A model generated the notes under the pieces. The model was not told the origin of the DNA, did not search any database, and saw only the letters and a list, made by a program, of their open reading frames with translations. From positions 1-37,251 of the IMG/VR virus record IMGVR_UViG_3300005467_000025: a stretch of DNA of 37,251 nucleotides; one strand, 5' to 3'. The stretch comes from a virus. Position 1 is the first letter of the stretch, and each line of letters starts with the position of its first letter. The position numbers and the translations under genes were made by a program. Positions 7,781-37,251 of this stretch are shown here, piece after piece.

Positions 7781-7783
7781 ATC

Positions 7784-8188: not shown

Positions 8189-8209
8189 TCGACAAACGGA
8201 GGCGAAACC

Positions 8210-8796: not shown

Positions 8797-8939
8797 AAGC
8801 GGAGTGGATCGTCGGGCTTTGTGAGCGCTTCTCCTGCCTACCGAGCGCGCTCATGGAGGAGGACGCGGCGTTGATCAGGATGGTGGGCATGGTGGACCGG
8901 GCGAGAAGGGAAGCGGGGGAGGTGGCCGATGCCGGGTAA
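8712..8939 (+). CDS. Tail assembly chaperone, frameshifted C-terminal part (gpT-like)
   Basis: This is the -1 frame extension used after slipping at 8706-8712. It adds 75 residues (starting GTELERWFAVGAAPDSNG and containing EAEWIVGLCERFSCLPSALMEEDAALIRMVGMVDRARREAG), giving a fusion of about 188 residues with the upstream 113. The helical C-terminal part typically recruits the tape measure protein. Its stop codon lies 10 bases inside the tape measure gene. No independent ribosome site is needed. Confidence 0.68.
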   Translation, partial: GTELERWFAVGAAPDSNGVPGTKPGALIEAEWIVGLCERFSCLPSALMEEDAALIRMVGMVDRARREAGEVADAG

Positions 8940-24156: not shown

Positions 24157-25153
24157 TCCACTCCGCCAGCCTGGCGCGGGCAACACTGCGGCCGTAGCTA
24201 CGCTCATCCATGATCCGCCGGGCGAGCCTGGCGTTCTCCCACCCGCGCACGAGATCGGCTTTTCGTAGGCGCGGCCGGTCACCGTTGCTCGGCATGTGCA
24301 GCACCACGCCGCGCTCCTGGTTCACCAGGTGCCGTGGCCCGTGGGTGTAGTGAGCCTCCGTCGGGAGTAAGTCATTTACTCCCATAAAGCCGGCCGGTCG
24401 ATTGGCCAGCATCCACTCAGCGTGCGCGTAGGTGGCAAGCTGAATGTCCACCTCCAGCCACGTAAAGAACTCCGTGGCCTTGGTCTTAAGGTCGGCCATG
24501 AACCACTCGCCCGTACGCACATCCTCCAGAACGTCGTCAAACCGGCCGGCCGCGCGCACCTCCACATTGCGGACCACGCGCTCCTGCATGCCAGGGACGC
24601 GGCGGAGGTGGTTGGCGGCCAGGAGCTCCTCCAGTTGCTCTATCTGGCGCCTGACCTCCTCCGATCCGAACAGATCCCCCGAGGTGGCGCGCTCCTGCCA
24701 GGAGTCGTGACGGTTGATGCCCTTCTGGCGCGCCACGTTGGCACCCGCGGTCTGTTTCGCGCGCCCGACGATGGAGGAGTCGCGGTCCTTCCAGGTGCCC
24801 GTGATGGCGCGCCGGATGTCCGGATGATTCTTCAGTTTCTGGAAGTTCACTCCGTCCCGGAGTGCGCGCCGGATGAGCAGGCATGCCTCCTCATACAGGG
24901 AGACGTCCAGCGCCAAACCTACGAGCGCCTGCTCCATCTCCCAGATGTTCAGCGCCTCCGTGTCCACGAACGCGCCGGCCAGCCTGGTCACCCGAGTGAC
25001 GCCACGAGGCACCCAGTTCCCGGTGTCTGTCTTCGTGCCCTCCTCGCCCGGTAGGAGCGGCATGTGATACCGGCCGTTGTACACATTCCCGAAGCGCTTC
25101 TCCCGCTCCATCAGGTCGGAGAGCGCGCTCGCGGTAGCGAAAACGTCAGTCAT
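24149..25153 (-). CDS. PD-(D/E)XK nuclease, RecB/Cas4-like exonuclease
   Basis: 334 residues, ATG inside the end of the upstream gene. The C-terminal half carries the nuclease motifs: E198, D206 in AAGRFDDVLED, D221-L-K223 in FMADLKTK, and the Q238-x3-Y242 motif in VDIQLATYAHAEWML. This is the motif order of the RecB/Cas4 branch that is frequent in actinophages. The N-terminal half is helical and may bind DNA or a partner. It probably processes DNA ends in phage recombination or replication together with the SF2 helicase encoded three genes upstream. Confidence 0.8.
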   Translation of the reverse strand: MTDVFATASALSDLMEREKRFGNVYNGRYHMPLLPGEEGTKTDTGNWVPRGVTRVTRLAGAFVDTEALNIWEMEQALVGLALDVSLYEEACLLIRRALRDGVNFQKLKNHPDIRRAITGTWKDRDSSIVGRAKQTAGANVARQKGINRHDSWQERATSGDLFGSEEVRRQIEQLEELLAANHLRRVPGMQERVVRNVEVRAAGRFDDVLEDVRTGEWFMADLKTKATEFFTWLEVDIQLATYAHAEWMLANRPAGFMGVNDLLPTEAHYTHGPRHLVNQERGVVLHMPSNGDRPRLRKADLVRGWENARLARRIMDERSYGRSVARARLAEWSD

Positions 25154-25370
25154 GCTTGACCTCGCGTGCAGGCACGTGCTCGTGATCCGGCATCTTGACC
25201 AGCTCGAAGTTACGCGCTTGCCAGGCGGCCATCTCCTGGTAGGCGAGCTCGACTTGCACGGCCTGATCGTGCAGTCCGTACCGGGTGCACTCCCGGGCGT
25301 ACGCGGCCACGATGCCCGGCGCGATCACGTCTTTGGCCTTCAGAACAAAGACCGGCATCGGGTCAGTCAT
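25146..25370 (-). CDS. 74-residue conserved actinophage protein
   Basis: ATG 25370; the stop overlaps the nuclease start. The pattern FVLKAKDVIAPGIVAAYARECTRYGLHDQAVQVELAYQEMAAWQ, split as a strand followed by two helices, is one I remember in small actinophage early proteins. It ends in a charged His-containing tail. Function unknown; operon position links it to the nuclease. Confidence 0.66.
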   Translation of the reverse strand: MTDPMPVFVLKAKDVIAPGIVAAYARECTRYGLHDQAVQVELAYQEMAAWQARNFELVKMPDHEHVPAREVKHD

Positions 25371-25734
25371 TGGATGGCGCTTCGATCACCGTGAAGCCGG
25401 CCGCCTCCAGTGCCGCGGTGAGTACCCGGCGGACGGCCAGGTCGTGGCTCTGAGCGTCCAGCCACTCGGTACGCCTGGCCGCGTCCACCATGGCCGGCGT
25501 GATCGTGATGACGCGTTGCTTCGCGGCGAAGTGCGAGAACACGCTCGCGGCCACCCGCCCCCAGACCTCTTTCTCGTCCGCGGGGAGCTCGTACTGTTCC
25601 TCGCCTTGCGGAGACGTCCACGGAGGCAGGCCCATCGGTCCTACGGGCGTGTCGATCGTGCCCTCCATGCCCTCCACGTACCGCTCATAGGCGACCCTTC
25701 CGAGCGCCTCGATTATGTCGTCAGCCATCGTCAT
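25363..25734 (-). CDS. 123-residue protein, unknown
   Basis: ATG 25734 is chosen because GAAAGGGG lies about seven bases upstream; a TTG at 25752 would add six residues. The protein has a helical start (DDIIEALGRVAYERYVEGME), a Pro/Gly-rich middle (TPVGPMGLPPWTSPQG) and a helical end (TPAMVDAARRTEWLDAQSHD, then AVRRVLTAALEAAGFTV). It overlaps the next gene by eight bases. No family recognised; position suggests a replication accessory. Confidence 0.6.
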   Translation of the reverse strand: MTMADDIIEALGRVAYERYVEGMEGTIDTPVGPMGLPPWTSPQGEEQYELPADEKEVWGRVAASVFSHFAAKQRVITITPAMVDAARRTEWLDAQSHDLAVRRVLTAALEAAGFTVIEAPSND

Positions 25735-25770
25735 TTCATCGACCCCTTTCAATTATATATTTGATGTTGA

Positions 25771-27567
25771 TCAGTTTTGGCTCGCGCGCACCGTGCGCAC
25801 AAGCGGATCGATGCGCTCCGCCGCGATCACCCGGTCGATCATGTCGGTGAGCTCACCCTTGGTCAGGACCACCAGGCCATTGTTGTCTCGGGGTACGACA
25901 ATCCCGCGGTAGCCGGCCATCCGGAGCTGAGCCTCAGACGGCCCCTGCTTGCGCCAGGAGGCGGAACGGGTGGTCAGAGTCTTGGTGCCCACTCCGCCAC
26001 GCTCAATCGCCTCATCCTCGGCGTACGCCAGCGCCTCCTCCAGCGGCAACTCCCGGTACTGGGTGAGGCCAGCCTGCATCCGGCCCTTCTTGGTGCACCA
26101 CACGACATCCCAGAGCGCGCCCGCCTCCGTGGTGCGCTGAGCCAGGAACACGTACTGGTCGACTCCCGCGCTCATGTAGAACGTGCCATCCGGCGTCTGA
26201 TCCCACACCCGCGAACGGTGTAGCGGATCAAACTCCACGATCTCGGTCGGACCCTCGTGCGGCTGCACGTAGGTCGGGTCCGCGAACTCCGCCGCGGTCT
26301 GGCCGACCTCCTCAAGCTGAAGGAGCGCCTCCTCCATCTCCAGCAGGGAGAGCTCCTCATCCTCCACCTGCGAGAGCGGGCGCTCCGGAGAGAGGTCGAT
26401 CAGGGAGCGAAGGTCATTGTTCGCACCCGCGCCCACCACGTCCAGGATGAGCGCGCGCCCGCGCTCCGCGGCCGGCTTCGTGAGGTCTGGCCGGAGCACC
26501 CGGCCGACCATCTGCTGGTAGAGCGGAGCACTCTTGGTCGGCCGGGCGATGACCACCACATCGGCGTGTGGAGCGTCGAAACCCTCCGTCAGCACCATGC
26601 AGTTATGGACGACCTTGACATCCCCCGCGATGAAGCGCTTGAGGATCAGCTTGCGCTCCTCCTTCGGTAGACCACCGTGGATAACCGCAGACGGAATTCC
26701 GGCGTCCTCGAAAGCCTCGCTGCCGTGATACGCCGTCTCCACCAGCGGCCAGAACGCAATGCCAGCGCGAAGTTCTCCCGCTGCGTCTCGCGCCACCTCC
26801 GCGTATTTCTCCGCAATGATCTGCGGGGCGAACGTGCGCTCAAGCTCCTCCGCCAGTGAATTGTCACTGAAATCTCCCGCCACAGTCTTGACGTTGCGCA
26901 TATCCATGTCGGGAACGCGGACGCGCTTACCCACCACGTCCAGCAGATACCCGTGCCGGATGCCGAAGAGAATGTCCCGCCGGAAGGTGCACTCCTCCCA
27001 GACTGTGGAGAGCTTGCCCTTGTCCTCGCGCGCCAGCGTGGCAGTGAAGCCAGCCACCTTCACACGTGCATCGAACGCGCCGAAGTGCTCAAGGATCTTG
27101 CCGTACGTGTTGGAGCGCAGGGCATGGTGCGCTTCGTCAACGATGATCAGACCGACGTTACGGATCTGCGCGCGGCGCTTCTCGCTGGCCAGCGTCTGAC
27201 GCGAGGACACGATGATCTGCGCGTGAACTTGGTTCAGGCCAGCCTTGACGATTCCCACGGTCAGGTGAGGGTTGCGCTGCCGCGCCTTCCTGGCCGCCTG
27301 CTCGATTAGCTCGTCAGTATGCGCGATGACCAGTACACGCCTGCCCAGTCCGTACGCTTCCGCCAGCCCGTTGTGCGTGATCTCGGTACGCTCGATGCCA
27401 CCAGGCTTGACTCCAATGTCACCGACCCATGCCGACTCAAGCGCCGTGAACATCTCGGTCTTGCCGAGACCAGTTGCCAGCACGAGCGGAACGCGCGTGG
27501 CGCCCGTGTCCCATCGCGCGATGAGGTCGGTGATCCCGGCCTTCTGGTATGAACGCAGATGCTTCAC
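25771..27567 (-). CDS. SF2 DEAH-type helicase
   Basis: 598 residues. GTG 27567 overlaps the stop of the 66-residue gene (GTGA) and has AGGAGCG upstream. Motifs in order: Walker A ATGLGKTE (31-38), DEAH at 144-147, TAT at 175-177, and Q-x2-GR-x2-R at about 352-359 (QMVGRVLRP). This is the DEAD/DEAH-box Type III/UvsW-like layout of phage helicases. The region after residue 420 is an acidic extension (VEDEELSLLEMEEALLQLEE) with an unknown C-terminal domain. It should unwind DNA in replication, recombination or origin remodelling. Confidence 0.86.
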   Translation of the reverse strand: MKHLRSYQKAGITDLIARWDTGATRVPLVLATGLGKTEMFTALESAWVGDIGVKPGGIERTEITHNGLAEAYGLGRRVLVIAHTDELIEQAARKARQRNPHLTVGIVKAGLNQVHAQIIVSSRQTLASEKRRAQIRNVGLIIVDEAHHALRSNTYGKILEHFGAFDARVKVAGFTATLAREDKGKLSTVWEECTFRRDILFGIRHGYLLDVVGKRVRVPDMDMRNVKTVAGDFSDNSLAEELERTFAPQIIAEKYAEVARDAAGELRAGIAFWPLVETAYHGSEAFEDAGIPSAVIHGGLPKEERKLILKRFIAGDVKVVHNCMVLTEGFDAPHADVVVIARPTKSAPLYQQMVGRVLRPDLTKPAAERGRALILDVVGAGANNDLRSLIDLSPERPLSQVEDEELSLLEMEEALLQLEEVGQTAAEFADPTYVQPHEGPTEIVEFDPLHRSRVWDQTPDGTFYMSAGVDQYVFLAQRTTEAGALWDVVWCTKKGRMQAGLTQYRELPLEEALAYAEDEAIERGGVGTKTLTTRSASWRKQGPSEAQLRMAGYRGIVVPRDNNGLVVLTKGELTDMIDRVIAAERIDPLVRTVRASQN

Positions 27568-27764
27568 GAGTTCGCTCCTAGGACATCGCCCCACGTCCAG
27601 CCGTTTTCGAGGAGGAGGGCAACGGCTTCGCCTCCATCGCAGATACTCTCGGGTCCGCACCTGGCCGCGCGGCAAGCGGCCTTGATTACCATCTGCTCGC
27701 CTTTGTAAGCGCTACGCATCCGCGCGGCCATCGCCTCGAACTCTCTGATCTGTTCCGCCGTCAT
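27564..27764 (-). CDS. 66-residue protein at head of helicase operon, leaderless
   Basis: ATG 27764 is six bases after a -10 box, so the transcript should begin at the start codon. The sequence is helical (TAEQIREFEAMAARMRSAYK) with three cysteines (CRAARCGPESIC) that could bind metal, then EAVALLLENGWTWGDVL. The stop is coupled to the helicase start. No family recognised. Confidence 0.62.
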   Translation of the reverse strand: MTAEQIREFEAMAARMRSAYKGEQMVIKAACRAARCGPESICDGGEAVALLLENGWTWGDVLGANS

Positions 27765-27770
27765 GCCTCT

Positions 27771-27801
27771 AGCCTACCCCATCTAGTCCAGATGTCAACT
27801 A
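27771..27801 (-). promoter_or_regulatory. Leaderless promoter D with consensus operator
   Basis: Minus strand: TTGACA (27793-27798), 16-base spacer, TAGGCT (27771-27776), AGAGGC, ATG. The operator 27784-27801 is an exact copy of the consensus TAGTTGACATCTGGACTA. It drives the helicase-nuclease operon and overlaps the last codons of the upstream 199-residue gene. Confidence 0.8.
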
Positions 27802-28394
27802 GAGAAACGCTGCTGGTCGAGGTCGATGCGGTTGTCCCAACCGAGGAGTTCGATCGCCACATACTCCGCCGCGGCCAGTTGGATCAGGACGGGCGTGGCC
27901 GCGGGGATGTCGAGGATGCGCTCAGGGTCACCTCCGGGATAGTCCAGCCGGACGCGCGTGAGATCGTGCTCGATCGCCCCGTCATCCCAGTGCCGGCCAG
28001 TACCACCGTCCCGCACATGCCGGCCCTCCTGGGAGCAGGAGAGGACGCGCGCCTCCGGCGCTGTCTCCGTGTGCTTGATCGTGTCCCCGACCCGCACGTC
28101 CGCATAGGTGCGCGGATACCAGAAAAGCTCGGGCGGAGGGTCGGGCAGCGTCTCCACGGTGACCGTGACGCCGTACCGGCCGAACTCGTCCCCATAGCCA
28201 GATTCGCTCAGGGTGGCGATCGTGGACGGGCGCTCATCCGCGCCCGTCGCGGCCTCCCAATTGATCCGGACAGACATTCCCTCATGAGGGCTGCCCTCAA
28301 GTTCGATCGTGATGCGGTTCAACCACTCCACAACCGTGTCGATAATGAACCACGGCAATTCCTGCCGAATGTGCTCACGCTCCTCGGGGGTCAT
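27795..28394 (-). CDS. 199-residue protein, unknown
   Basis: ATG 28394 overlaps the upstream stop. The protein starts with a helical segment (TPEEREHIRQELPWFIIDTV) and continues with mixed strands, including GMSVRINWEAATGADERPST, VRVGDTIKHTETAPEARVLS and a LIQLAAAEYVAIELLGWDN helix near the end. Acidic overall. It ends the unit driven from 29619. Nothing identifies a function. Confidence 0.6.
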   Translation of the reverse strand: MTPEEREHIRQELPWFIIDTVVEWLNRITIELEGSPHEGMSVRINWEAATGADERPSTIATLSESGYGDEFGRYGVTVTVETLPDPPPELFWYPRTYADVRVGDTIKHTETAPEARVLSCSQEGRHVRDGGTGRHWDDGAIEHDLTRVRLDYPGGDPERILDIPAATPVLIQLAAAEYVAIELLGWDNRIDLDQQRFSS

Positions 28395-28774
28395 CGCTTA
28401 CGTCCCTCCTGGACGCGGACACGTGCATCCGTGAAAACCTCATACTTGTCCAGTTGAGCAATCCAAGCCGCGGGGATCTTCGCCTCCTCCAGCGCGATCG
28501 CCCATGCCGCCCACGTGCTCGGTCCGGCGTACCGAATGTCCACCACCCGCGGCCATTCCAGCGCGGCCAGCTTCTCGGCGGTCAGCCTCTCGCGTATCAA
28601 GCTGTTCGCCGCCCGGGGGCTGATCGCGCGGACGGCCGCAATGAAGTCATGCGGCGCGGCGTTCAGTGCGGCAACGGCAGCCATGAGCGCATCTTCGTTA
28701 CTTTGTGCAATCGGTAGGCCGAGCTCGTATATCTCTCGTGCCGCATCGATAACGGCACGCTCCTCAGGAGTCAC
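28391..28774 (-). CDS. 127-residue helical protein, unknown
   Basis: GTG 28774 overlaps the stop of the tiny membrane gene (GTGA) and has GGAAGGG six bases upstream, so it is preferred over ATG 28789. The product is largely helical (TPEERAVIDAAREIYELGLP, AMMAAVAALNAAPH-like repeats of Ala, RAANSLIRERLTAEKLAALE). It shares its opening TPEER with the next gene product, which may reflect a common short motif. Function unknown. Confidence 0.6.
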   Translation of the reverse strand: MTPEERAVIDAAREIYELGLPIAQSNEDALMAAVAALNAAPHDFIAAVRAISPRAANSLIRERLTAEKLAALEWPRVVDIRYAGPSTWAAWAIALEEAKIPAAWIAQLDKYEVFTDARVRVQEGRKR

Positions 28775-28878
28775 TGTCGTCCCTTCCATGTCTTAATGGC
28801 GCTGTCAATCAGAGCCGAGACGCCCACGATCACCTCAGCGATCAGGATGAGAAGCTGAAAGAACAGCGTCCAGCTCAC
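28771..28878 (-). CDS. 35-residue membrane peptide
   Basis: GTG 28878 overlaps the upstream stop (GTGA), and its own stop overlaps the next GTG. The product (VSWTLFFQLLILIAEVIVGV then SALIDSAIKTWKGRQ) has one hydrophobic span and a basic C-terminus. Coupling on both sides supports it as a real gene. Function unknown. Confidence 0.6.
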   Translation of the reverse strand: MSWTLFFQLLILIAEVIVGVSALIDSAIKTWKGRQ

Positions 28879-29057
28879 TTGTCCCACCCATCCAGCTCTA
28901 GCTCAACCTCTAGCTCAACCACCGTGGCCCAGTCGATGTCACACGTGCAGCCGAGCTCGTGGCCAAAGCAGAACGCGCACCCGGTGCAGGTGCACGGTTC
29001 GTACTCGCCGTGCGGGACGGCCTCACGCATCCGCCGCTCCCACTCCTCGCGTGTCAC
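28875..29057 (-). CDS. 60-residue cysteine-rich protein
   Basis: GTG 29057 overlaps the upstream stop (GTGA). Six Cys in a short stretch (PCTCTGCAFCFGHELGCTC) plus a His form likely zinc sites, reminiscent of DnaJ-like zinc fingers. The rest is acidic (ATVVELEVELELDGWDK). It lies among coupled early genes and may act as a host-factor binding protein. No family recognised. Confidence 0.6.
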   Translation of the reverse strand: MTREEWERRMREAVPHGEYEPCTCTGCAFCFGHELGCTCDIDWATVVELEVELELDGWDK

Positions 29058-29278
29058 TGATCACGCCCCGACCTACGGGCGGCCAGATAGTCGCCCGTGA
29101 GCGCCCCGATGGTGACCACCATCAGCACGCCGGCCGTGTAGACCGACACCCGGACGATCGTCCATAGGACCGAATCCCCGGTCAGGAAGGCGACCAGCGC
29201 GAGGAGGAGCACGAGGTAAGCGAGGACATCGAGTATCGCTTCACTCATCTTGTTGATCTTGCGATACGGGACTCTCAT
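29054..29278 (-). CDS. 74-residue two-span membrane protein
   Basis: ATG 29278 overlaps the upstream stop (TGATG). Two hydrophobic spans (AILDVLAYLVLLLALVAFLT and TIVRVSVYTAGVLMVVTIGA) are joined by a short loop, and the C-terminus is basic. It is the second gene of the leftward unit starting at 29619. Unknown role in the envelope early in infection. Confidence 0.64.
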   Translation of the reverse strand: MRVPYRKINKMSEAILDVLAYLVLLLALVAFLTGDSVLWTIVRVSVYTAGVLMVVTIGALTGDYLAARRSGRDQ

Positions 29279-29619
29279 CAGCCCACTACCTTGACGCTGA
29301 CCACGTTTGTGACCCGCGGAATGATGGACAGACCGGCACTGCCACGGAGGATCACCGAGTCCCCGGCCACGTATGCGGTGATCGAACGACCGCCACCCAG
29401 CCTGAACGTGACCCGCGGGTCCGCGCCCAAGCCGATCGGCAAATCGTCGTACGAGTTCAGAGTCGCCACCGACTCGTCGGGATCGGTCTTCAGGTGCGCC
29501 TCTCGTGCGCTCTCCTGCGATACACGGGCAATCCGGCGGCAGCGCTCAAGCTGCTCCCGTGCCCAGCGCGGGAGTCTGTCCTCACGTTCGTCACGCTCGG
29601 GGACCTCATGCAAGTCCAT
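29278..29619 (-). CDS. Conserved early actinophage protein
   Basis: ATG 29619 follows AGGAGG at seven bases; a GTG two codons earlier is less likely. 113 residues: a charged helical start (DEREDRLPRWAREQLERCRR), then SYDDLPIGLGADPRVTFRLG and a small beta domain ending in IIPRVTNVVSVKVVG. This pattern (helix, then 'LPIGLG...RVTFRL') is one I recall in many actinophage early regions, always without known function. It heads the leftward unit next to the RHH gene. Confidence 0.7.
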   Translation of the reverse strand: MDLHEVPERDEREDRLPRWAREQLERCRRIARVSQESAREAHLKTDPDESVATLNSYDDLPIGLGADPRVTFRLGGGRSITAYVAGDSVILRGSAGLSIIPRVTNVVSVKVVG

Positions 29620-29635
29620 GATCACACCTCCTCGG

Positions 29636-29653
29636 TAGTCCAGTCGCCAACTA
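29636..29653 (-). promoter_or_regulatory. Operator E upstream of the 113-residue gene
   Basis: Minus strand TAGTTGGCGACTGGACTA, two to three mismatches from consensus. The embedded -35-like box is TTGGCG; no good -10 box is visible 17 bases on, so the promoter is weak or positioned differently. Paired in inverted orientation with operator F. Confidence 0.6.
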
Positions 29654-29671
29654 CCTTAGACCTCCCGGAGG

Positions 29672-29704
29672 TAGTTGTCTACTGGACTACTGTACGCGTA
29701 GAGT
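29672..29704 (+). promoter_or_regulatory. Promoter with operator F for the RHH regulator
   Basis: Plus strand TTGTCT (29675-29680), 18-base spacer, TAGAGT (29699-29704). Operator 29672-29689 reads TAGTTGTCTACTGGACTA. With operator E it forms a divergent control region of the two first early units. Transcription would start about 80 bases before the RHH gene. Confidence 0.65.
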
Positions 29705-29791
29705 GGACAGCGAGCACCGGTACGCCAGTGCTCACGCATCACATGGTGCGCTCGCGCACCCTGCGCCGAGCGCGGAAGGAGGAACGAACGG

Positions 29792-30205
29792 ATGGCGACC
29801 AAAGAACAGTTCATGGTCAGCGTTGATGAGCTCATGCGGGATGAAGTAGACGCACTGCGCATCGTGCTTGGCGTGAGTCGGGCGGAGGTGGTCCGGCGCG
29901 CGCTCACACAGGGCGGCGTGATCGCCCTCAAGCGCGCGAACGTAGACCGCCTCGGCCGGCTTTACAACCTGGCCGAGGCGGAGGGTTTCTTGAGCTGGGG
30001 CGAGTACGTGCAAGCGTTGATCAAGGCGAGCCCCAAACTCTCTCCCAGCTTGGAATCGCTGGAGGGCCTGGCGCGCCTGAAGAGTCCGAACCGCGTCAAG
30101 GCGCCACGGCGCCGTAAGACGGTCGGCCTCGCCGCGGCCGCCATCGACGCACTGGAGGGCGAGACGGGCGAGCACGAGACGCCGCAACCCCCGGAAGCGG
30201 CCTGA
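29792..30205 (+). CDS. Ribbon-helix-helix DNA-binding protein, candidate repressor
   Basis: 137 residues; ATG behind AAGGAGG. The N-terminus fits the RHH (CopG/Arc/MetJ) fold: a short strand EQFMVSV (5-11) and helices ELMRDEVDALRIVLG and SRAEVVRRALTQGG up to residue 43. A middle helical part (ANVDRLGRLYNLAEAEGFLS) and a basic then acidic tail follow. RHH dimers bind short inverted TAG-like half-sites, which fits the TAGT...ACTA operators nearby. It is transcribed from operator F and is the best candidate for the phage master regulator, but this is inference. Confidence 0.72.
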   Translation: MATKEQFMVSVDELMRDEVDALRIVLGVSRAEVVRRALTQGGVIALKRANVDRLGRLYNLAEAEGFLSWGEYVQALIKASPKLSPSLESLEGLARLKSPNRVKAPRRRKTVGLAAAAIDALEGETGEHETPQPPEAA

Positions 30206-30381
30206 TCTCTGACCGCGTGGCTCATGCCTCATGACGCCGTCTGACCAGCACAATCGTCGGACAGGGTCCGGCAACACGCAGCAGACACGAACGACCGACT
30301 GTTCGTAAGCAACACGAACGGCGCGCTCCGCGAATAGCGCGCCGTTCATCATCGGGGGTCGACAAAACGGAGGCTACCATC
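30206..30381. other. Intergenic region before the primase gene, with repeats
   Basis: The 176-base gap holds two ACACGAACG direct repeats, an inverted GTTCGT, and a strong hairpin (see separate entry). No TTGACA-type promoter or operator is visible, so the primase gene may depend on read-through from promoter F. Confidence 0.45.
30316..30347 (+). terminator. 12-bp hairpin ahead of the primase gene
   Basis: GAACGGCGCGCT (30316-30327) pairs perfectly with AGCGCGCCGTTC (30336-30347) across eight bases. No T-run follows. It could attenuate transcription from the RHH gene into the primase gene, setting a low ratio of replication protein. Confidence 0.5.
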
Positions 30382-32610
30382 GTGACCTCGCCGTACGTAC
30401 TTAGTGACGATGAAGTACGCGAAGCGCTGAAAATAGCGCAAGAACTCATAGATGCCGGAATCCCCGTATTCGCGGCAGCGCCGGACCTGAGCAAACCGGG
30501 GCACTACCACCTTCCCGCGAAGTGGCAGCTCACCATGCCGGCTACCGTATGGCTGGAACGCTGGCAACCAGGATGGGCGCTCGCCGCGGTGGGAGGTGTG
30601 CGCGAGCTCACGAGTGGCGAGCTCGGCGGAGCCGACTTTCTCGACATCGACCCGCGGAACGGCGGAGATGCCTCCCTGGCCGAACTTACGGCGCATCGGC
30701 AGGTGCCGCGTTCCTTCGGCCGGCAGGCCACGCCGTCCGGCGGGACGCACGACATCATCTCCGCGACCGGTGAGCGTAAGGCCGTGGGATTCATGCCGGG
30801 TGTGGACCTACAGTCCGGCGCGCCGGACGGGACCGGCCGAGGCTTTGTGTGGATATCACCGACCGTGCGCCCCAGCAAGAGTGTGGAAGACTACGCAGAT
30901 GAGGACTCGATGCATCGAGTCCCCGTCTTGCGCCCGTACCGCTGGATCGAACGCCCGGACATGGATCAGTTGGCCGAATGGCGCGGGTCGGACGACTCCA
31001 CCGAGGGGATCATCGCGCGGGTCTACTCCGCCCGAGCGGCCAGGCGTACCGACGGGGATGGGAGCAGCGCTGCCGCAAGCAACGCGTACGGCGTTGCCTC
31101 ATCTCCCTTCGCGCTGCCGTCCCTCTCGGCCAGAGCGTTCACCGCGGCGGAGGCACAGGAGTTCTGCCGGCCGGCGTTGACCGCGCTACAAGCGGCCAGG
31201 GTCGGTGAAATCGAGGAGCGGTGTAACGCCGCGGCTGCCCAGCTCTCGCACTTCGTGCCGGCTATCTGGACGGCCGACCGGGCGATGGCCATTCTCCGGG
31301 CCTGCCTGGCCGAGACGGCGTACGACGAGAACCATCCGGCCAGCACGTGGACTGTGGAGAAGTTCCGCCCGGTGCTGACCGGGGCGCGCCCCGTGGCCGA
31401 CCCATGGAAGGCGACCCTTCGCGCCGAACCGCTCTCCCTGGCACCTGAGATCATTCCGGAGGAGCGGGGGGAGCAGTCTCGCGCGGACTGGCTGGAGGGC
31501 CAGATCCTCACGGCGGACGAGATCGCCGAGCGGCCGGCTCCCGTGCCGCTCGTGTACGGCCGGCTCAACATGAACAGTGAGGCGTGGATCATCGGGGCAC
31601 CCGGCTCGTTCAAGTCGTTCATCGCGCTGGACCTGGCCGCGCATGTGGCCGGCGGCCGGGAGTGGCACGGCCATCGGGTACGCCGGGAGCGGGTGCTCTA
31701 CCTGGCCGCGGAAGGTGCGGAGGGGATGACCCTGCGCGCTCGCGCCTGGCGGAAGATCCACGGTCCAATGGCCGGCGTGGACTTCCTCCCCCTCCCGATG
31801 CAGGTGACCAAGACGGAGGACTGGGCAGCCCTGGTGGAGGTGGCGGCCAGGCGGGGGTACGGCCTGATCGTGGTGGACACGCAGGCACGAGTCACGAAGG
31901 AGCTGGACGAGAACGCGGCCAGGGATGCCGGCATCTACATCGATGCGGTGACCGCCCTGCGGGTGGCCACGGGCGCGTGCGTCCTCACCGTCCACCACAC
32001 GGGGCGCAAGGGTGGGGACGCCCGTGGGTCCAGCGCGATCGACGGTGCGCAGGACTCGGAGATCAAGCTGGACCGGATCGTGCCGCGCTCCTCGATGCGG
32101 GTACGCCTACGGGACGACAAGCAGAAGGACATGGCGGAGGACATGGAGGGCGTGGAGCTCCTGCTTCAGGTGGTCGATCTCGGTACGGATCCGGAGACCG
32201 GCCAGGCGCTGTCTTCCCTTGTCGTGCTGACGGACGAGTACGTGGCGGCCGAGCGGGCAGGCGTGGCGGACGTGGATCACGGCCAGGTGGAGACCATCGG
32301 GGAGCCGGGACGCTGGACTCACGACTTGTTCGGTCACCAACGCCAGGAGACCAAGCGGCGGATCCTTCAGGTCTTGCGCGATGCGGGCGGCCAGGTGGGA
32401 CTCACGGAGGCCAAGACGCTGGCGCTCGTGGCCGAGAAGTGGCACGGCGGGAAGGTCGGCAACGGCGCGGGAGAGATCAAGAAGGCGAACTTCCAGACTT
32501 ACTGGAGTGACCTTCTCGTTCACGTCCTGCCGTCCGGAGAGTTCTTGATCTTGAATCCGAGCGGCGAGAAACGGGCCGTGAATCCGGCCGCGTGGGAATC
32601 GGACGAATAG
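30382..32610 (+). CDS. Primase-polymerase / RepA-type helicase replication protein
   Basis: 742 residues from GTG 30382, with ACGGAGG upstream. Residues about 1-200 are a prim-pol domain: D88-x-D90 in FLDIDPRNGG, SGGTH ending in H123, and D142 in GVDLQSG. Residues about 380-600 are a RepA-like hexameric helicase: Walker A GAPGSFKS at 405-412, LIVVDTQ with D499, and TVHHTGRKGG. The C-terminus (about 650-742) looks like a helical DNA-binding region. One protein thus combines priming and unwinding, as in plasmids and some phages that rely on host polymerase. An iteron cluster follows directly. Confidence 0.86.
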   Translation: MTSPYVLSDDEVREALKIAQELIDAGIPVFAAAPDLSKPGHYHLPAKWQLTMPATVWLERWQPGWALAAVGGVRELTSGELGGADFLDIDPRNGGDASLAELTAHRQVPRSFGRQATPSGGTHDIISATGERKAVGFMPGVDLQSGAPDGTGRGFVWISPTVRPSKSVEDYADEDSMHRVPVLRPYRWIERPDMDQLAEWRGSDDSTEGIIARVYSARAARRTDGDGSSAAASNAYGVASSPFALPSLSARAFTAAEAQEFCRPALTALQAARVGEIEERCNAAAAQLSHFVPAIWTADRAMAILRACLAETAYDENHPASTWTVEKFRPVLTGARPVADPWKATLRAEPLSLAPEIIPEERGEQSRADWLEGQILTADEIAERPAPVPLVYGRLNMNSEAWIIGAPGSFKSFIALDLAAHVAGGREWHGHRVRRERVLYLAAEGAEGMTLRARAWRKIHGPMAGVDFLPLPMQVTKTEDWAALVEVAARRGYGLIVVDTQARVTKELDENAARDAGIYIDAVTALRVATGACVLTVHHTGRKGGDARGSSAIDGAQDSEIKLDRIVPRSSMRVRLRDDKQKDMAEDMEGVELLLQVVDLGTDPETGQALSSLVVLTDEYVAAERAGVADVDHGQVETIGEPGRWTHDLFGHQRQETKRRILQVLRDAGGQVGLTEAKTLALVAEKWHGGKVGNGAGEIKKANFQTYWSDLLVHVLPSGEFLILNPSGEKRAVNPAAWESDE

Positions 32611-32634
32611 GTACAAACACGTTCAGGACAGACA

Positions 32635-32671
32635 CTGTCCTGATCATGGAAAATTTCCATGATCAGGACAG
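32635..32671. repeat. 18-bp inverted repeat with single-base centre
   Basis: Positions 32635-32652 are the exact reverse complement of 32654-32671, with one A in the middle; the core is GGAAAATTTCC. Each arm contains one TCAGGACA/TGTCCTGA iteron. The AT-rich centre could be the unwinding or nicking point. Confidence 0.75.
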
Positions 32672-32775
32672 TCATCAGGACAAGATCACTAGACGCTTCA
32701 GGACAAGATCAGGACACGCTCTGACCTGCATCTGGACAAGATCAGGACATCATCAGGACATCGCTCGCTAATCCA

Positions 32776-32819
32776 TCAGGACGTGTGCCCCCGACCTTAG
32801 GAGGGGGCACGTGTCCTGA
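32776..32819. repeat. GC-rich hairpin with iteron arms
   Basis: TCAGGAC/GTCCTGA outer arms and GTGCCCCC/GGGGGCAC inner arms (32785-32792, 32803-32810) form a two-part stem with a two-base mismatch. It ends the iteron cluster and may also stop transcription from the primase gene. Confidence 0.6.
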
Positions 32820-32874
32820 AGCGTCCGGAAGCCTGAAGCCGGAAGACGGAGGGGCAAGATCAAAAAGTCGAGAC

Positions 32875-32903
32875 TTGACGTGCGTTAGACACCCGAGGAA
32901 GCT
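32875..32903 (+). promoter_or_regulatory. Leaderless promoter G without operator
   Basis: TTGACG (32875-32880), 17-base spacer, GAAGCT (32898-32903), ATAGGC, ATG. The layout and the CTATAGGCATG end match promoters B and H, but the bases right of the -35 box do not fit the operator. This gene may escape the common repressor. Confidence 0.6.
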
Positions 32904-32909
32904 ATAGGC

Positions 32910-33224
32910 ATGACGAGTCCAAGATCACGACGGTCCCGGAAGTACTTGGTCGGGATGCTCGACCCGAGCGTGGCGCCACGTCTCGCGCCGGCCATGCGTG
33001 CCGTGCGTGCACTCCTGGCCGATGGGCGGTGGCACGAGTACAAGACGCTTGCCGATTGCGCGCTGGGTGCGTCCGACGTCAAGTACGAAACGATCCGCGG
33101 GACGCTGGGCACGCTCGTCCGCGAGGGCATGGTCGAGAAGCGCGGCGAGTACGCCTACGGCACACACGAGGACCACCGCGAATACCGCCTGGCCGACTGG
33201 CCCCTACCGGAGGTGAAGTCATGA
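32910..33224 (+). CDS. Winged-helix DNA-binding protein next to the origin
   Basis: 104 residues, predicted leaderless. A basic start (SPRSRRSRKYLVGML) is followed by a winged-helix pattern: AMRAVRALLADGRWHEYKTL, DVKYETIRGTLGTLVREGMV, then a beta wing (EKRGEYAYGTHEDHREYRLA). Its gene is immediately beside the iteron cluster and has its own promoter, so it may bind the iterons as initiator or copy-control protein (inference). It is coupled to the next gene by an ATGA overlap. Confidence 0.7.
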   Translation: MTSPRSRRSRKYLVGMLDPSVAPRLAPAMRAVRALLADGRWHEYKTLADCALGASDVKYETIRGTLGTLVREGMVEKRGEYAYGTHEDHREYRLADWPLPEVKS

Positions 33225-33622
33225 CCCGAGAGGACCTGGCCGACCTCCTGCGTGTAGCGCACGAAGCTCTGGCCGCAGTGGCAGCTCTGGCCGACCGCAT
33301 TCAGACGCTCGCTGACGAACGGGCCCTGACCGTAGGGTCGGAGGCCGCGGAGCCGCTGGGCGCTCAGAATGGCTCTCAGGCCGTTTCCGGTGCCGAGCGT
33401 GCGTTCATCCGGCGGTTCAACGACCTTCAGGCCGCGCGGACCGCGGGCAACGGCGGCGAGTTCGATCCAACCTTCGGCGCGTGGCAAGAGGTCATCGATC
33501 AAGATCACGAAGAGGCGATCTTCCTCGACCGTCTGCGCGCCGCGGTCCTACACGGATCGGCGCGTGAGGTTCCGCCTCCGCCGCGCGGCTTTAGGCTGCC
33601 GCGCGACATCATCGGAAAGTAG
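33221..33622 (+). CDS. 133-residue helical protein, unknown
   Basis: ATG 33221 overlaps the upstream stop (ATGA); longer frames would run through the winged-helix gene. The first 40 residues are a long Ala-rich helix (TREDLADLLRVAHEALAAVA, ALADRIQTLADE). Later parts contain AFIRRFNDLQAARTAGNG and a basic, Pro-rich end (VPPPPRGFRLPRDIIGK). It may be a coiled-coil partner of the winged-helix protein. No family recognised. Confidence 0.6.
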   Translation: MTREDLADLLRVAHEALAAVAALADRIQTLADERALTVGSEAAEPLGAQNGSQAVSGAERAFIRRFNDLQAARTAGNGGEFDPTFGAWQEVIDQDHEEAIFLDRLRAAVLHGSAREVPPPPRGFRLPRDIIGK

Positions 33623-33650
33623 TTGACATCCGGACTAGATCAGGTAGGCT
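33620..33650 (+). promoter_or_regulatory. Leaderless promoter H with operator
   Basis: TTGACA (33623-33628), 16-base spacer, TAGGCT (33645-33650), ATAGGC, ATG. Operator 33620-33637 reads TAGTTGACATCCGGACTA, one mismatch from consensus. It starts the small-gene unit that runs to RusA. Confidence 0.8.
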
Positions 33651-33656
33651 ATAGGC

Positions 33657-33863
33657 ATGATGAAGTTGAGCAGGGCCGCAGAGGACGCACTTGTGAACGC
33701 CTCCAGCTCGCGGCAGGGCGCCGTGCTCCCCGAGATGTCCGCCGGCGTTGCTGCTGAACTCGTGAACGCCGGTCTCATTGGTGGCGAGTACGGCCTCACG
33801 CGTAAGGGCACGGTGGAGCGCGAGCGGGTTGTCACGAAGCGACTGGAGGAGGCGTTCGGATGA
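33657..33863 (+). CDS. 68-residue winged-helix-like protein, leaderless
   Basis: ATG 33657 is six bases after the -10 box. The sequence (SRAAEDALVNASSSRQGAVL, AAELVNAGLIGGEYGLTRKG, TVERERVVTKRLEEAF) resembles the short winged-helix proteins that read 'aL..aGlig.e.gLT..G'. It probably binds DNA or a regulatory partner. Coupled to the next gene by ATGA overlap. Confidence 0.66.
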   Translation: MMKLSRAAEDALVNASSSRQGAVLPEMSAGVAAELVNAGLIGGEYGLTRKGTVERERVVTKRLEEAFG

Positions 33864-34069
33864 GTGCGATGAAGTGGACTCGCGTAGCGGCCGGCTTGTA
33901 TGAGTCCGGCCGCTACACGATTAGGCAGGGACCACGGCCGGGGCGCTTCTGGGTACTGCGGTTCGGTGGAAGCGTCTTCGGGCTCAAGACGCCGTGCCGC
34001 TTTCCGACAGTCCGGGAGGCGAAACAGGCCGCCGAGATCGACAGACGCAAGCGAGAGGAGACCACATGA
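33860..34069 (+). CDS. 69-residue protein, unknown
   Basis: ATG 33860 overlaps the upstream stop. The product (KWTRVAAGLYESGRYTIRQG, RFWVLRFGGSVFGLKTPCRF, PTVREAKQAAEIDRRKREET) looks like a small three-stranded sheet plus a helix, a layout often seen in phage proteins of unknown role. It is followed by a coupled membrane peptide gene. Confidence 0.62.
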   Translation: MSAMKWTRVAAGLYESGRYTIRQGPRPGRFWVLRFGGSVFGLKTPCRFPTVREAKQAAEIDRRKREETT

Positions 34070-34212
34070 GTGGGGCGGTCCTGCTCTGGGTGGCCTTCGG
34101 CCTGCTCCTGGCGATGCTGGGGGCAGGCTTCGCCGTCTCCCTGATCTCGGCCAGGCGCGAGATGGATGATGCCATTCGCATGCTGCGAGAGAGGCGTGAG
34201 CGAGATGAGTGA
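34066..34212 (+). CDS. 48-residue single-span membrane protein
   Basis: ATG 34066 overlaps the upstream stop (ATGA). The span (AVLLWVAFGLLLAMLGAGFA) is followed by a charged helix (SARREMDDAIRMLRERRERD), so the C-terminus likely faces the cytoplasm. Function unknown. It overlaps the RusA gene by eight bases. Confidence 0.62.
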   Translation: MSGAVLLWVAFGLLLAMLGAGFAVSLISARREMDDAIRMLRERRERDE

Positions 34213-34750
34213 GTCGATCGCGGAGATGTTCATTTCCGGCCGGCCACGCACGAAGGGCAGTCTCGCGCCACTCCCCGTGCGGGACGGCCGCGGGAAGCTG
34301 CGGATCACTATGCACGACACGCCGGAGAGCGAGACGTGGAAGCGGACGATGATCGCGGCCATCCGCTGTGAGTGCAAGATCATGCCGCGCGTGGCGGGAC
34401 GCAAGATCGTGGGTTTTGATCCGGAGCCGTACCCCGGTCCCGTGGACGTGACCGCCGTCTTCGCCTTCGACCGGTCGATGTCCGTCAACGGTGGGCCGGT
34501 ACCGTCGCACGCCGGGGACTTCCCTGAGGCTGAAGACATCGGGGACGTGGACAAGCTTCTCCGCAACCTCTTGGACGCGCTCACTCAGTCCGGCCTGATC
34601 AAAGATGACCGGCTTGTCATCTGGACGTCCGCCGTCAAGATCTGGACTGCGCCCCTGAGTCTCTACGCGCGGGCCGGCGTGTCCCTGTGCGTGACCCCCA
34701 CCAAGGGATGGCGCGCGGAGAGCCTGAGCGAGGAGCGGGCCGCGTCGTGA
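34205..34750 (+). CDS. rusA: RusA-like Holliday junction resolvase
   Basis: 181 residues from ATG 34205. The RusA signature GDVDKLLRNLLDALTQSGLI followed by KDDR is present (about 112-135), with the aspartates that bind metal. The N-terminus ISGRPRTKGSLAPLPVRDGR is also typical of the family. RusA cuts four-way junctions, which phages use to resolve recombination or to prepare branched DNA for packaging. It is coupled to neighbours on both sides. Assignment is firm at the family level. Confidence 0.85.
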   Translation: MSESIAEMFISGRPRTKGSLAPLPVRDGRGKLRITMHDTPESETWKRTMIAAIRCECKIMPRVAGRKIVGFDPEPYPGPVDVTAVFAFDRSMSVNGGPVPSHAGDFPEAEDIGDVDKLLRNLLDALTQSGLIKDDRLVIWTSAVKIWTAPLSLYARAGVSLCVTPTKGWRAESLSEERAAS

Positions 34751-35157
34751 GGTACGCACTGTTTCCCGAGAGCGATCTCGCGCACGAGCGCTCGATGGCG
34801 CCGTATGCACCCGCGGTTACCTCGTACCCGGCGCCAGAGGTGACCTCGCGCGATGGCGTCGAAGGGCCGAGCAAGCGTGCCGTGGAGAGCCTCCGGAAGG
34901 CCGCGGAGGCGCACGGGTGGAGCGTCGTGGTCACCTACTCGCGGGGATGCTTCCCGCACGCCAGGACCGGCCGGCCCGGCGCCGTCAAGGACGTCCTCGC
35001 GGTCCGGATGTACCGACCTGGTCGCCAGGCCGTAGCGGTCTACTCAGGCGGACCGACGTGGAGCTGGGGCACCCTGGCCGCCTGGGACCTTCCGCCGGAA
35101 GGCCTGCCGACCTTCTACGATTCGATCACGCGGTTCATGGATGAGGTGGTGGGATGA
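34747..35157 (+). CDS. 136-residue protein, unknown
   Basis: GTG 34747 overlaps the RusA stop. A short disordered start (SMAPYAPAVTSYPAPEVTSR) precedes a domain reading SKRAVESLRKAAEAHGWSVV, VTYSRGCFPHARTGRPGAVK, DVLAVRMYRPGRQAVAVYSG. The order helix, strand, then 'D..AVRM' strands resembles an endonuclease-like or DNA-binding fold, but I cannot name it. Neighbouring RusA and terminase genes hint at DNA processing. Confidence 0.6.
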   Translation: MRYALFPESDLAHERSMAPYAPAVTSYPAPEVTSRDGVEGPSKRAVESLRKAAEAHGWSVVVTYSRGCFPHARTGRPGAVKDVLAVRMYRPGRQAVAVYSGGPTWSWGTLAAWDLPPEGLPTFYDSITRFMDEVVG

Positions 35158-35270
35158 AGGGACGCGTGCTGACGGTCGCTGAGGCGTTCGTCATGATCAT
35201 GGTGCTCGCGTTCCTGACGTCCGGCGTGGTCGCCTTCGTGTGGATCGTGTTCGAGGTTGTGCGTAATTGA
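35154..35270 (+). CDS. 38-residue single-span membrane protein
   Basis: ATG 35154 overlaps the upstream stop (ATGA). One span (AFVMIMVLAFLTSGVVAFVW) fills most of the 38 residues; the N-terminus is basic. It is another member of the set of tiny coupled membrane proteins of this genome. Confidence 0.6.
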   Translation: MKGRVLTVAEAFVMIMVLAFLTSGVVAFVWIVFEVVRN

Positions 35271-35288
35271 TCAAAATGATGGTGACTA

Positions 35289-35765
35289 ATGACGGATCAT
35301 GACGGGGCGCGGCGCGGCCTGAGCGACCGTGAGGCGGAGATTTATCGCCTACGTGTGGTCAACAGGCTCACGGAGCGCGAGATCGGGGAGCGGTTCGGGA
35401 TCACCCAACCGCGCGTCTCGCAAATCCTCACGGAGATACGTCGCCTTCTCCCGACACCCGACCTGGCCGCCGTGCGCGCGGAGGCGCTCGCGCTGCACGA
35501 ACAGGTGCAACGGATGGCGCTGGAGCTCGCGGAGATGGAAGGCGCCCCGGTCACGGCCGGCAAAGATGGCGTCATCGTCCGTGATCCGGAGAATGGCGAT
35601 GCCGTGGTCCGTGACTACGCCGGCCGGATCAACGCGCTCAAGCTGGCGCTGGAGGCGGACCGCGAGATCCGCAGGCTGTTGGGCGCGGACGCGGCCTCAA
35701 AGGTGGAGAGCACAGCTACGGTCAAGTACGAACTCGCGGGCATCGACCCTGAAGCCTTGAAGTAG
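35289..35765 (+). CDS. Terminase small subunit-like DNA-binding protein
   Basis: 158 residues. The N-terminal part is a helix-turn-helix (LSDREAEIYRLRVVNRLTER, EIGERFGITQPRVSQILTEI), followed by a long helical region (VRAEALALHEQVQRMALELA, RINALKLALEADREIRRLLG). HTH plus coiled-coil directly before terL is the standard build of the small terminase subunit, which recognises the packaging site. The separate leaderless gene between it and terL is unusual. The alternative is a sigma-like regulator. Confidence 0.7.
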   Translation: MTDHDGARRGLSDREAEIYRLRVVNRLTEREIGERFGITQPRVSQILTEIRRLLPTPDLAAVRAEALALHEQVQRMALELAEMEGAPVTAGKDGVIVRDPENGDAVVRDYAGRINALKLALEADREIRRLLGADAASKVESTATVKYELAGIDPEALK

Positions 35766-35766
35766 C

Positions 35767-35798
35767 TAGTTGACATCTAGACTAGTTACCGGTAATGT
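35767..35798 (+). promoter_or_regulatory. Leaderless promoter I with operator, ahead of terminase
   Basis: TTGACA (35770-35775), 17-base spacer, TAATGT (35793-35798), seven bases, ATG 35806. Operator 35767-35784 reads TAGTTGACATCTAGACTA, one mismatch from consensus. It is the strongest looking promoter in the window and may lead into the late genes. Confidence 0.82.
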
Positions 35799-35805
35799 AC
35801 TGGTC

Positions 35806-36012
35806 ATGACGGAGAGCGCGAGCACCAAGCAGAATCTTACGGTCGGTCGTAGCACCACTGTTCATGTCGCATTCGGTGACCTTCCCCGCTGTGACACCGG
35901 TAGTGGGGCGCGTGGTGGCTCCAGCCGCAAGACCTCCGCCGCGGTGACCTGTAAGCGATGCCTCAAGATCGTGCCCACGGCCAATAGCCGGGTGACTAAC
36001 CTGATCACGTGA
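35806..36012 (+). CDS. 68-residue Cys-containing protein, leaderless
   Basis: ATG 35806 stands seven bases after the -10 box. The protein has a polar start (TESASTKQNLTVGRSTTVHV) and three Cys (LPRCDTGSGA ... AAVTCKRCLKI) that may form a small zinc site. It is coupled to terL by a GTGA overlap. Such short proteins with 'CxRC' motifs are common in actinophages, function unknown. Confidence 0.62.
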   Translation: MTESASTKQNLTVGRSTTVHVAFGDLPRCDTGSGARGGSSRKTSAAVTCKRCLKIVPTANSRVTNLIT

Positions 36013-37251
36013 CCGCTGAGATCATCGAGCGCCGCATCTCACTACGAGGCGCGGCGCTCGCGGTCATGCATGACCGGTCGCCTGAAGTCTTGCTCTGCGG
36101 CGCGGCGGGTACGGGCAAGTCGTATGCCGCGTTGACCAAGATCCACATGATGATGCTGGCCACGCCTGGCGCGCGAGCGCTCATGGTGCGCAAGACGGCG
36201 GTCAGCCTGACACAGACCGGCCTGGTGACGTTCCGGGAGCAAGTGCTGACCGAGGCGCTGAAGACCGGCCTGGTGAAGTGGTATGGCGGCAGCGCGGAGC
36301 AGCCTGCCGGCTACCGCTACTCGAACGGCCGCTACTCGAACGGCAGTTACTCGAACGGCAGCTTCGTGGCCGTGGGTGGGATGGATCAGGCCGCGAAGAT
36401 CATGTCGTCTGAGTACGATGTCATATTTTGTCAAGAAGCGACTGACCTCACGGTCACCGATTGGGAGTCGCTGTCATCCCGGCTTCGCAACGGCAAGATC
36501 TCATTTCAGCAGCTCCTGGCCGACTGCAACCCCCAGCACCCGTCCCACTGGCTGCATAAACGCTGCCAGGACGGTGCGACCAGGTTGCTGACCTCGCTAC
36601 ACGAGGACAACCCGCGGATCGCCAGTGATGACGGCACGCTGACCGAGTACGGGCGAACGTACATCGCGCGTCTCGACTCGCTGACCGGCGTTCGTAGGGA
36701 GCGCTTGCGGTACGGGCGGTGGGCGGCGGCGGAGGGCATCATCTTCGACGCCTGGCGTCCCGAGGTGCACTACAGCGACCGTAAGCGCCTGCCGCAGGAG
36801 TGGCCGCGCATCTGGGGCGTGGACTTCGGGTACACCAATCCGTTCGTGTGGCAGATGTGGGCGCGGGATCCGGACGGCCGGCTCTGGCTGGAGAAGGAGA
36901 TCTACCGGACGCAGACGCTCGTGGTCGATCATGCGAAGGCGATTCTTGAGGTGGTCACGGTGAACAAGGACCGCGGACGATGGATGTACCCGAAGCCCGA
37001 GGCGATCGTGTGCGATCACGACGCGGAGGACCGGGCGACGCTGGAGCGCGAGCTCGGGATGGGCACGGTGGCCGCATGGAAGGGCGTGTCAGACGGCATT
37101 CAGGCGATGCAACGCCGACTGATCGTGCAGCCGGACGGCAAGCCGCGCATGTTTGTACTGCGCGACTCGCTCGTGTCCCGGGATGCGTCCCTGGCCGAAC
37201 GTGGCCGGCCGGTGTGCTTCGGTCAGGAAGTCGAGGGTTACGTGTGGAAGC
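36009..37251 (+). CDS. terL: Terminase large subunit (3' end cut off)
   Basis: GTG 36009 overlaps the upstream stop; 414 residues are visible before the window ends. Walker A GAAGTGKS (31-38), Walker B region DVIFCQEATD (D137-E143), a GGMDQAAKIMSSEYD motif, and the nuclease domain with GVDFGYTNPF (D272) and CDHDAEDR (D336, D338) are all present. The protein packages DNA into proheads through the portal and cuts the concatemer. Three near-identical 15-bp units (36315-36359) encode repeated YSNG in the ATPase domain. Portal and other head genes should lie just beyond the edge. Confidence 0.92.
   Translation, partial: MTAEIIERRISLRGAALAVMHDRSPEVLLCGAAGTGKSYAALTKIHMMMLATPGARALMVRKTAVSLTQTGLVTFREQVLTEALKTGLVKWYGGSAEQPAGYRYSNGRYSNGSYSNGSFVAVGGMDQAAKIMSSEYDVIFCQEATDLTVTDWESLSSRLRNGKISFQQLLADCNPQHPSHWLHKRCQDGATRLLTSLHEDNPRIASDDGTLTEYGRTYIARLDSLTGVRRERLRYGRWAAAEGIIFDAWRPEVHYSDRKRLPQEWPRIWGVDFGYTNPFVWQMWARDPDGRLWLEKEIYRTQTLVVDHAKAILEVVTVNKDRGRWMYPKPEAIVCDHDAEDRATLERELGMGTVAAWKGVSDGIQAMQRRLIVQPDGKPRMFVLRDSLVSRDASLAERGRPVCFGQEVEGYVWK
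36315..36359 (+). repeat. Three tandem 15-bp units within terL
   Basis: Units at 36315-36329, 36330-36344 (identical) and 36345-36359 (first codon differs) encode RYSNG, RYSNG, SYSNG. In-frame slippage duplication inside a conserved gene. Confidence 0.85.

Follow-up and report, generated by a model that had tools for sequence, protein, structure and literature searches.

The window analysed here is the whole of IMG/VR virus record IMGVR_UViG_3300005467_000025, with a length of 37,251 bases. An exact end repeat of 10-399 nt is absent, and the record begins inside a major-capsid-like gene and ends inside the large terminase gene, which is why we have treated it as a fragment. Judged by its predicted genes, the source is a tailed phage with tail and terminase genes of its own; as major capsid, tail and large-terminase genes are all encoded in the window, it falls outside the PICIs, which are satellites without full virion genes. 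Among the matches listed, the closest relatives of the large terminase belong to Thermobifida phage P1312 (57%) and to Streptomyces phages, suggesting that the host is probably an actinobacterium. A nucleotide search with positions 25000-37251 against phage records returned no near match. The rightward genes start with rep (30382-32610, plus strand), which encodes a predicted initiator helicase of 742 residues and is followed by a gap of 299 bp up to an ATG at 32910, by small ORFs, and by a RusA-like and a sigma-region-4-like gene. The latter starts about 2.5 kb downstream of the repeats in this gap, in a place where a small terminase might lie, and the large terminase gene about 3.2 kb downstream of them.

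An iteron array directly behind rep

The gap behind rep carries an array on the plus strand (32623-32819) of nine exact TCAGGACA octamers, seven direct and two inverted, along with two near-copies, TCTGGACA at 32731 and TCAGGACG at 32776, just as the first-pass annotation of this DNA had described. The first iteron stands 13 nt past the rep stop codon, so that the iterons lie immediately 3' of the initiator gene, as they do in origins of the SaPI/PICI type. In the whole window the octamer occurs ten times, the tenth copy being a stray at 12836, where 1.12 occurrences are expected; the maximum among 100 shuffles was seven, and none reached ten. A scan for local 8-mer clusters ranks TCAGGACA first in the window with nine copies within 300 nt, while 8-mers outside the array and not overlapping it reach at most four. 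For the 250 nt behind rep, a count of nine was reached by none of 200 dinucleotide shuffles and by none of 731 other windows of 250 nt. With the near-copies included, the direct spacings are 40, 12, 23, 11, 22, 11, 11 and 23 nt, and seven of these eight take the values of 11-12 or 22-23 noted earlier, that is, one or two helical turns, the exception (40) being the one that spans the 5' palindrome. This phasing is consistent with a period of 11-11.25 bp and is only moderately significant (permutation p = 0.015). A non-iteron motif, CTGACCTGC, lies in the middle of the array (32721-32729, plus strand) and has two occurrences in the whole window.

Two palindromic elements accompany the iterons. 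The 5' palindrome (32634-32672) consists of perfect arms at 32634-32652 and 32654-32672, one nucleotide apart, which hold an inverted iteron pair and meet in the core GGAAAATTTCC at 32648-32658. The 3' GC hairpin (32776-32819), a candidate priming hairpin, has 17-nt arms that are 88% complementary, an apex CCTTAGG at 32795-32801, and an iteron pair at its arm ends. Both elements had been noticed before, and both are present; the first, however, has arms of 19 rather than 18 bp and is located inside the 5' part of the array. Folded as single-stranded DNA and compared with shuffles, the palindrome reaches a z of -9.9 and the GC hairpin a z of -6.0. A search of Rfam gave no match near the gathering score, five microRNA models having been fitted to the hairpins far below threshold.

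Among 40-mers sampled every 20 nt, A+T content reaches at most 60% within the array, and the maximum of the window, 70%, is found elsewhere. The most A+T-rich 40-mers (up to 70%) lie at 25731-25786, near the border of two leftward ORFs. In 32301-33200 we found no exact DnaA box in either of two consensus forms, and a single site with one mismatch, which overlaps an iteron near-copy. The first-pass annotation had likened the region to iteron plasmids; given this result and a Rep that is a helicase initiator, these are not the closest comparison. It had also suggested looking for a switch in GC skew at the repeats. The skew minimum is found between divergent operons at about 29.0-30.5 kb, at a distance of some 2-3.5 kb from the repeats, and because it coincides with these operons and is off the repeats, it cannot be assigned to the latter and is unusable as evidence for an origin here.

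The Rep protein

AAA_25 is the sole Pfam family above cut-off in the window's Rep (residues 377-544, E 3.3e-34). A profile of the Rep family built from 26 relatives finds RSF1010 RepA (1g8y) with an E of 2.9e-12, other matches being no better than 0.18, and Foldseek returns the same structure as the top hit for the Rep model (E 3e-10). By sequence profile and by predicted fold alike, the helicase core is thus of the RSF1010 RepA family. At the N-terminus, a match to Prim-Pol (PF09250) scores 16.7 bits, under the Pfam cut-off of 22.8, and we regard this region as putatively primase-like. Toprim and SF3 families are not matched at E values up to 0.1, and neither DUF927 nor D5_N/Primase_Cterm, the helicase families described for the Reps of two SaPIs, comes above cut-off; a search of NCBIfam gave no family. 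While AAA_25 is matched by all 26 relatives, other domains appear in some of them only (at E 0.01: Prim-Pol in seven, PriCT_2 in five, Toprim in four and HTH_IclR in two), and all four relatives that match Toprim also match AAA_25. From this patchiness, the primase part of the protein looks exchangeable.

The AlphaFold model of the whole Rep is of modest confidence (mean pLDDT 66). Modelled alone, the C-terminal domain of 121 residues reaches a pLDDT of 75 and shows the order helix-helix-helix-strand-strand. VIA-align matches this model to winged-helix proteins, the best being the winged-helix region of a cullin (Z 8.4, rmsd 2.3, 70 residues aligned), where a Z near 8 may reflect a common arrangement. 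Foldseek returned nothing for the domain at an E of 0.001 or lower, the best value being 0.2. Among the matches listed by these fold searches we recognised no origin-binding family, which is no argument against one. The model supports a winged-helix fold for the C-terminal domain, with the understanding that such models bear on fold and not on function.

Recurrence of the array among Rep relatives

A tblastn search with Rep gave matches in 1284 records of phages and 19 of plasmids, none reaching 60% identity, from which we examined 16 named records (15 phages and one plasmid). Five of the 16 carry an array directly behind the gene, namely Rhizobium phages RHph_N65 and RHph_X2_25, EBPR siphovirus 5, the terminase-bearing Caenibius plasmid p1 and Burkholderia phage BcepGomr, the array of the last being weak (four copies of an A/T-only 8-mer together with a CCCCTTTAGGGG hairpin). 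The other 11, Shagrat, Dove, CaiB, GB2A, Daisy, phi674, TPA2, SummitAcademy, HSE2, SF5 and Vibrio 1220, have fewer than four copies behind the gene. The Caenibius plasmid (Caenibius sp. WL, 38 kb; L009 in our numbering of loci) combines a terminase gene with a Rep whose iterons lie 3' of it, and may be a phage-plasmid or else a phage genome that was deposited as a plasmid.

Searches of viral and genome contigs with single-protein patterns confirmed no close relatives, and the relatives described below came from an alignment query. This query was built from four Reps, those of the window, L004, L005 and L009, all of them array-bearing, and the best 80 of 551 confirmed IMG/VR candidates were used, such that the sampling leans towards array-bearing seeds. 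A second query gave four loci, three of which were on contigs found already. The resulting 93 sequences (84 loci, eight named records and the window) include 91 with the 3' end of rep, which form 59 clusters at 70% identity, and their Reps are 30-52% identical to that of the window in the best local segment. At least four copies of one 8-mer occur in the 250 bp 3' of rep in 30 of 59 clusters, and at least five in 24. In 29 of the 30 array-bearing clusters this count exceeds that of every other window of the locus, and upstream of rep at least four copies were found in one of 54 testable regions. The first-pass annotation's view that tailed phages of this type seldom have such an architecture is therefore not supported: with the array in 30 of 59 sampled clusters, and with its position and symmetry kept, it is not unusual for phages that have such a Rep. 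Conversely, since 29 of 59 clusters fall below four copies, Reps with a RepA-type helicase can do without such an array.

When two later named phages are added and BcepGomr is entered with its count of four (61 rows), arrays are found with 30 of 46 Reps of at least 600 aa, compared to two of 15 shorter ones, one of these being cut by a contig end. Mapped on the Rep tree, the array label changes 13 times, versus 20.5 for shuffled labels. Absence of the repeats in relatives that keep Rep had been named beforehand as evidence against an origin; in the supported clade of eight rows that includes the window, seven carry an array, and the origin reading is not refuted by this check. In the remaining row, L012, the hexamer ACTTTG is present six times within the 300 nt that follow rep and twice in the other 4,954 nt, a count that was made post hoc. 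A RusA-like gene is likewise downstream in L010, L012, L014 and L015. The 104-aa winged-helix gene, which the first-pass annotation had put forward as a partner, is not supported in that role, as tblastn at E 0.01 against the relatives' loci finds it in L014 only and not in the closest relative, L010, despite the array there. Displaced 8-mer clusters were seen in two further loci, about 623 nt behind rep in L022 (TCCGGAAA, eight copies) and 3.5 kb behind it in L077 (CGAACCTA, seven copies), and are perhaps origins that have moved.

A related arrangement was found in Escherichia coli. One cluster (L058) has a Rep of 468 aa and an array of AAAGTGGG, and its helicase region finds a partial match in 1581 of 5426 E. 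coli genomes, covering at least 80% in 105 of these. In E. coli strain 504239, positions 4130-13418 (L102) form a compact island beside a tRNA-Pro gene, which carries the same 3' array as L058 and encodes an integrase, HTH regulators, a RepA-family helicase, an SSB, a major capsid protein, a decoration protein and a small terminase, a gene set that we take to be that of capsid-forming PICIs. Helicases of the RepA family followed by a 3' array are thus shared between phages and at least one satellite-like element.

A common layout with changing iterons

The 30 arrays have a common layout: the median start is 17 nt past the rep stop codon, an inverted pair of neighbouring iterons is present in 29 of 30 (with up to one mismatch; a count without control), and 67 of 157 same-strand spacings measure 10-13 nt. 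The letters, on the other hand, follow the lineage, with CACTCCGG in L010, GCGTTGCA in L013, CCTGTGCA in L015, GTCCAGCA in L020, and CGGAAG- or CGGAGA-like iterons in the group with Rhizobium phage and Caenibius members. By eye, a GGA core can be seen in the window, L010, L014, L020 and the CGGAAG group, and not in L011 or L013. That each lineage has iterons of its own is what would be expected if array and Rep co-evolve. The mid-array motif CTGACCTGC is common to the window, L010, L011, L020 and L014 (in L014 on the reverse strand), and thus occurs in five of 59 clusters, compared to five of 1454 control windows (uncorrected p 5e-6). A second shared word, ACCCGCAGAAA, lies between iteron blocks in L009, L060 and L090, placed like CTGACCTGC.

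Hairpins with an arm of at least 10 and a loop of at most 12 were found behind rep in 34 of 59 clusters versus 106 of 1454 control windows (p 6e-22), this strict test having replaced a looser one with loops up to 40 (47 of 59 versus 177 of 472 sampled control windows). An apex of the form CC-n-GG, a pattern picked post hoc, is present in 21 of 59 clusters versus 20 of 1454 control windows. Hairpins are common in loci without an array too (13 of 29, versus 21 of 30 with one, in the strict test; 9 of 29 versus 12 of 30 for the CC-n-GG apex), so the association between the two is not strict. In the window, L011, L013, L004 and L016, an iteron pair of the locus itself forms the end of the 3' hairpin or flanks it, even as the iterons differ between loci.

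Discussion

We conclude that the 299-bp gap behind rep very probably holds the replication origin of this phage, to which Rep itself would bind. The direct basis for this is the anatomy of the array, its statistics, the helicase family of Rep, and the recurrence of the layout behind remote Rep homologues, which also lends support to the first-pass annotation's proposal that the Rep gene is directly followed by an origin of the iteron type. Place, size and symmetry are kept while the letters follow the lineage of the neighbouring initiator, which is how a Rep-specific origin would be expected to look. Mechanistically, the predicted C-terminal winged-helix domain of Rep would bind the direct iterons, one per turn and on one face of the helix, and bound Rep would nucleate the assembly of RepA-type helicase domains into a ring. 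Strand opening could follow in the spacers or in the 5' palindrome, at its AT core or close to it. Both hairpins would then be exposed as single strands, on which the N-terminal primase-like region may load or prime, and replication would pass to host proteins. The inverted iteron pairs could also bring Rep molecules together and so limit firing. Considering the RepA-type helicase and the division of labour among three proteins in RSF1010, we propose by analogy that this one Rep may do the work of RepC, RepA and RepB', with the hairpins as candidate sites at which priming would take place.

Could the array instead be an operator with no role as an origin, through which either the 104-aa protein or Rep would control the downstream operon? 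In favour of this are the position of the array, with rep on one side and the next gene (32910) on the other, the small size of the 104-aa protein, and the inverted pairs, which fit repressors. However, L010 keeps the array where the 104-aa gene was not found, a search of 32300-33300 for promoters of the sigma-70-like type found none, and copies spaced by one turn across 200 bp would exceed the needs of an operator. We therefore consider this very unlikely, noting that an array acting as origin could also let Rep regulate its own gene. A terminator, or a packaging or recombination site that resembles an origin by chance position, has an even smaller chance of being correct. A GC hairpin directly behind a gene, and sigma-region-4-like and large terminase genes at about 2.5 and 3.2 kb downstream, would suit such a reading, yet the hairpin at 32776-32819 has no T-tract behind it as an intrinsic terminator would, a T-tract follows only three of 48 hairpins in the family, the single terminator-like match in 32300-33300 is on the minus strand with 0.6 expected, and the arrays of relatives, too, sit directly behind rep. 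Least probable of all is a parS-like partition centromere of a plasmid-like prophage. A precedent exists in the Cluster A mycobacteriophages Miko and Rachaly, where five direct repeats that immediately follow repA are described as a parS locus (PMC7157519). Against this reading stand the tracking of the helicase gene by the repeats across relatives and the lack of any ParA, ParB or integrase family among those proteins of this incomplete fragment that were scanned with Pfam or PHROGs.

Returning to an origin bound by Rep, the fixed place of the array and the lineage-specific iteron letters could make origins predictable in many uncultured phages, and could open the specificity between Rep and iteron to study across tens of natural pairs; the terminal hairpin offers a concrete candidate site of primer laying. 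It is possible, though we advance this tentatively and with some doubt, that these loci represent a widespread and as yet unnamed class of phage origins. Its initiator would be a RepA-type helicase with a winged-helix reader of its own and an exchangeable primase module, acting on a self-origin made up of lineage-specific iterons, inverted pairs and a GC hairpin whose recurrent apex would be an ssi-like priming site. Such a replicon would amount to a one-protein RSF1010, possibly copying the leading strand only, in tailed phages and some satellites. In a literature search by title, which covered few subscription journals, we recognised no earlier description of this array in phages with a RepA-type helicase.

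Comparison with known systems

Several replicons share parts of this design. An unrelated initiator, of the RepA_N type, is reported to bind iterons in a satellite (PMC7145576). In pRN1, a stem-loop directly 3' of the primase-helicase gene is described as required for replication, and the pRN1 family and the stem-loop origin of Bordetella phage BIP-1 resemble the present locus in combining a primase-helicase-winged-helix protein with a 3' stem-loop (PMC4234260); for one family of such primases, the cited work suggests that a C-terminal winged helix may read the plasmid origin (PMC5862659). Unlike the window, with its RepA-type helicase and iteron array, pRN1 and BIP-1 have an SF3 helicase and one large stem-loop without iterons. 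The helicase of P4 alpha is of the SF3 type as well, a type that was not detected in this Rep. P4 alpha is similar in that, as described, primase, helicase and winged-helix origin binding reside in one protein and the origin contains repeats, whereas its primase is of the Toprim type (PMC4234260), which was not detected in this Rep either.

The likeness to the oriV of RSF1010 (IncQ) lies in the RepA helicase family, the iterons, and hairpins near the origin as possible primase sites. There, according to the cited accounts, RepC binds the iterons, RepA unwinds, and RepB' primes beside the ssi hairpins (PMC4234260, PMC4434180). These are three separate proteins, whereas here the helicase and a predicted DNA-binding domain are part of one polypeptide; moreover, ssiA and ssiB are given as 40-nt elements bound by RepB' (PMC4434180), while the repeated core in the window is 8 nt.

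As with the array here, the SaPI and PICI origins are described as lying immediately 3' of the initiator gene and as having many short iterons (PMC7581432, PMC6092414). In SaPIs, the C-terminal domain of Rep is reported to recognise iterons directly downstream of its own gene (PMC7581432), and plasmid maintenance by a rep-ori segment is described for an E. coli PICI (PMC6092414). The differences are that the two SaPI Reps described are helicases of the DUF927 or the D5_N/Primase_Cterm type (PMC7581432), compared to RepA/AAA_25 here; that PICI origins are described as having two iteron sets around an AT-rich region, where the window has an array and then a terminal GC hairpin; and that a PICI is a satellite island, while this record is a tailed phage with tail and terminase genes. 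Taken together, the closest design is the rep-ori of SaPIs and PICIs, and RSF1010 is the system that shares the helicase family.
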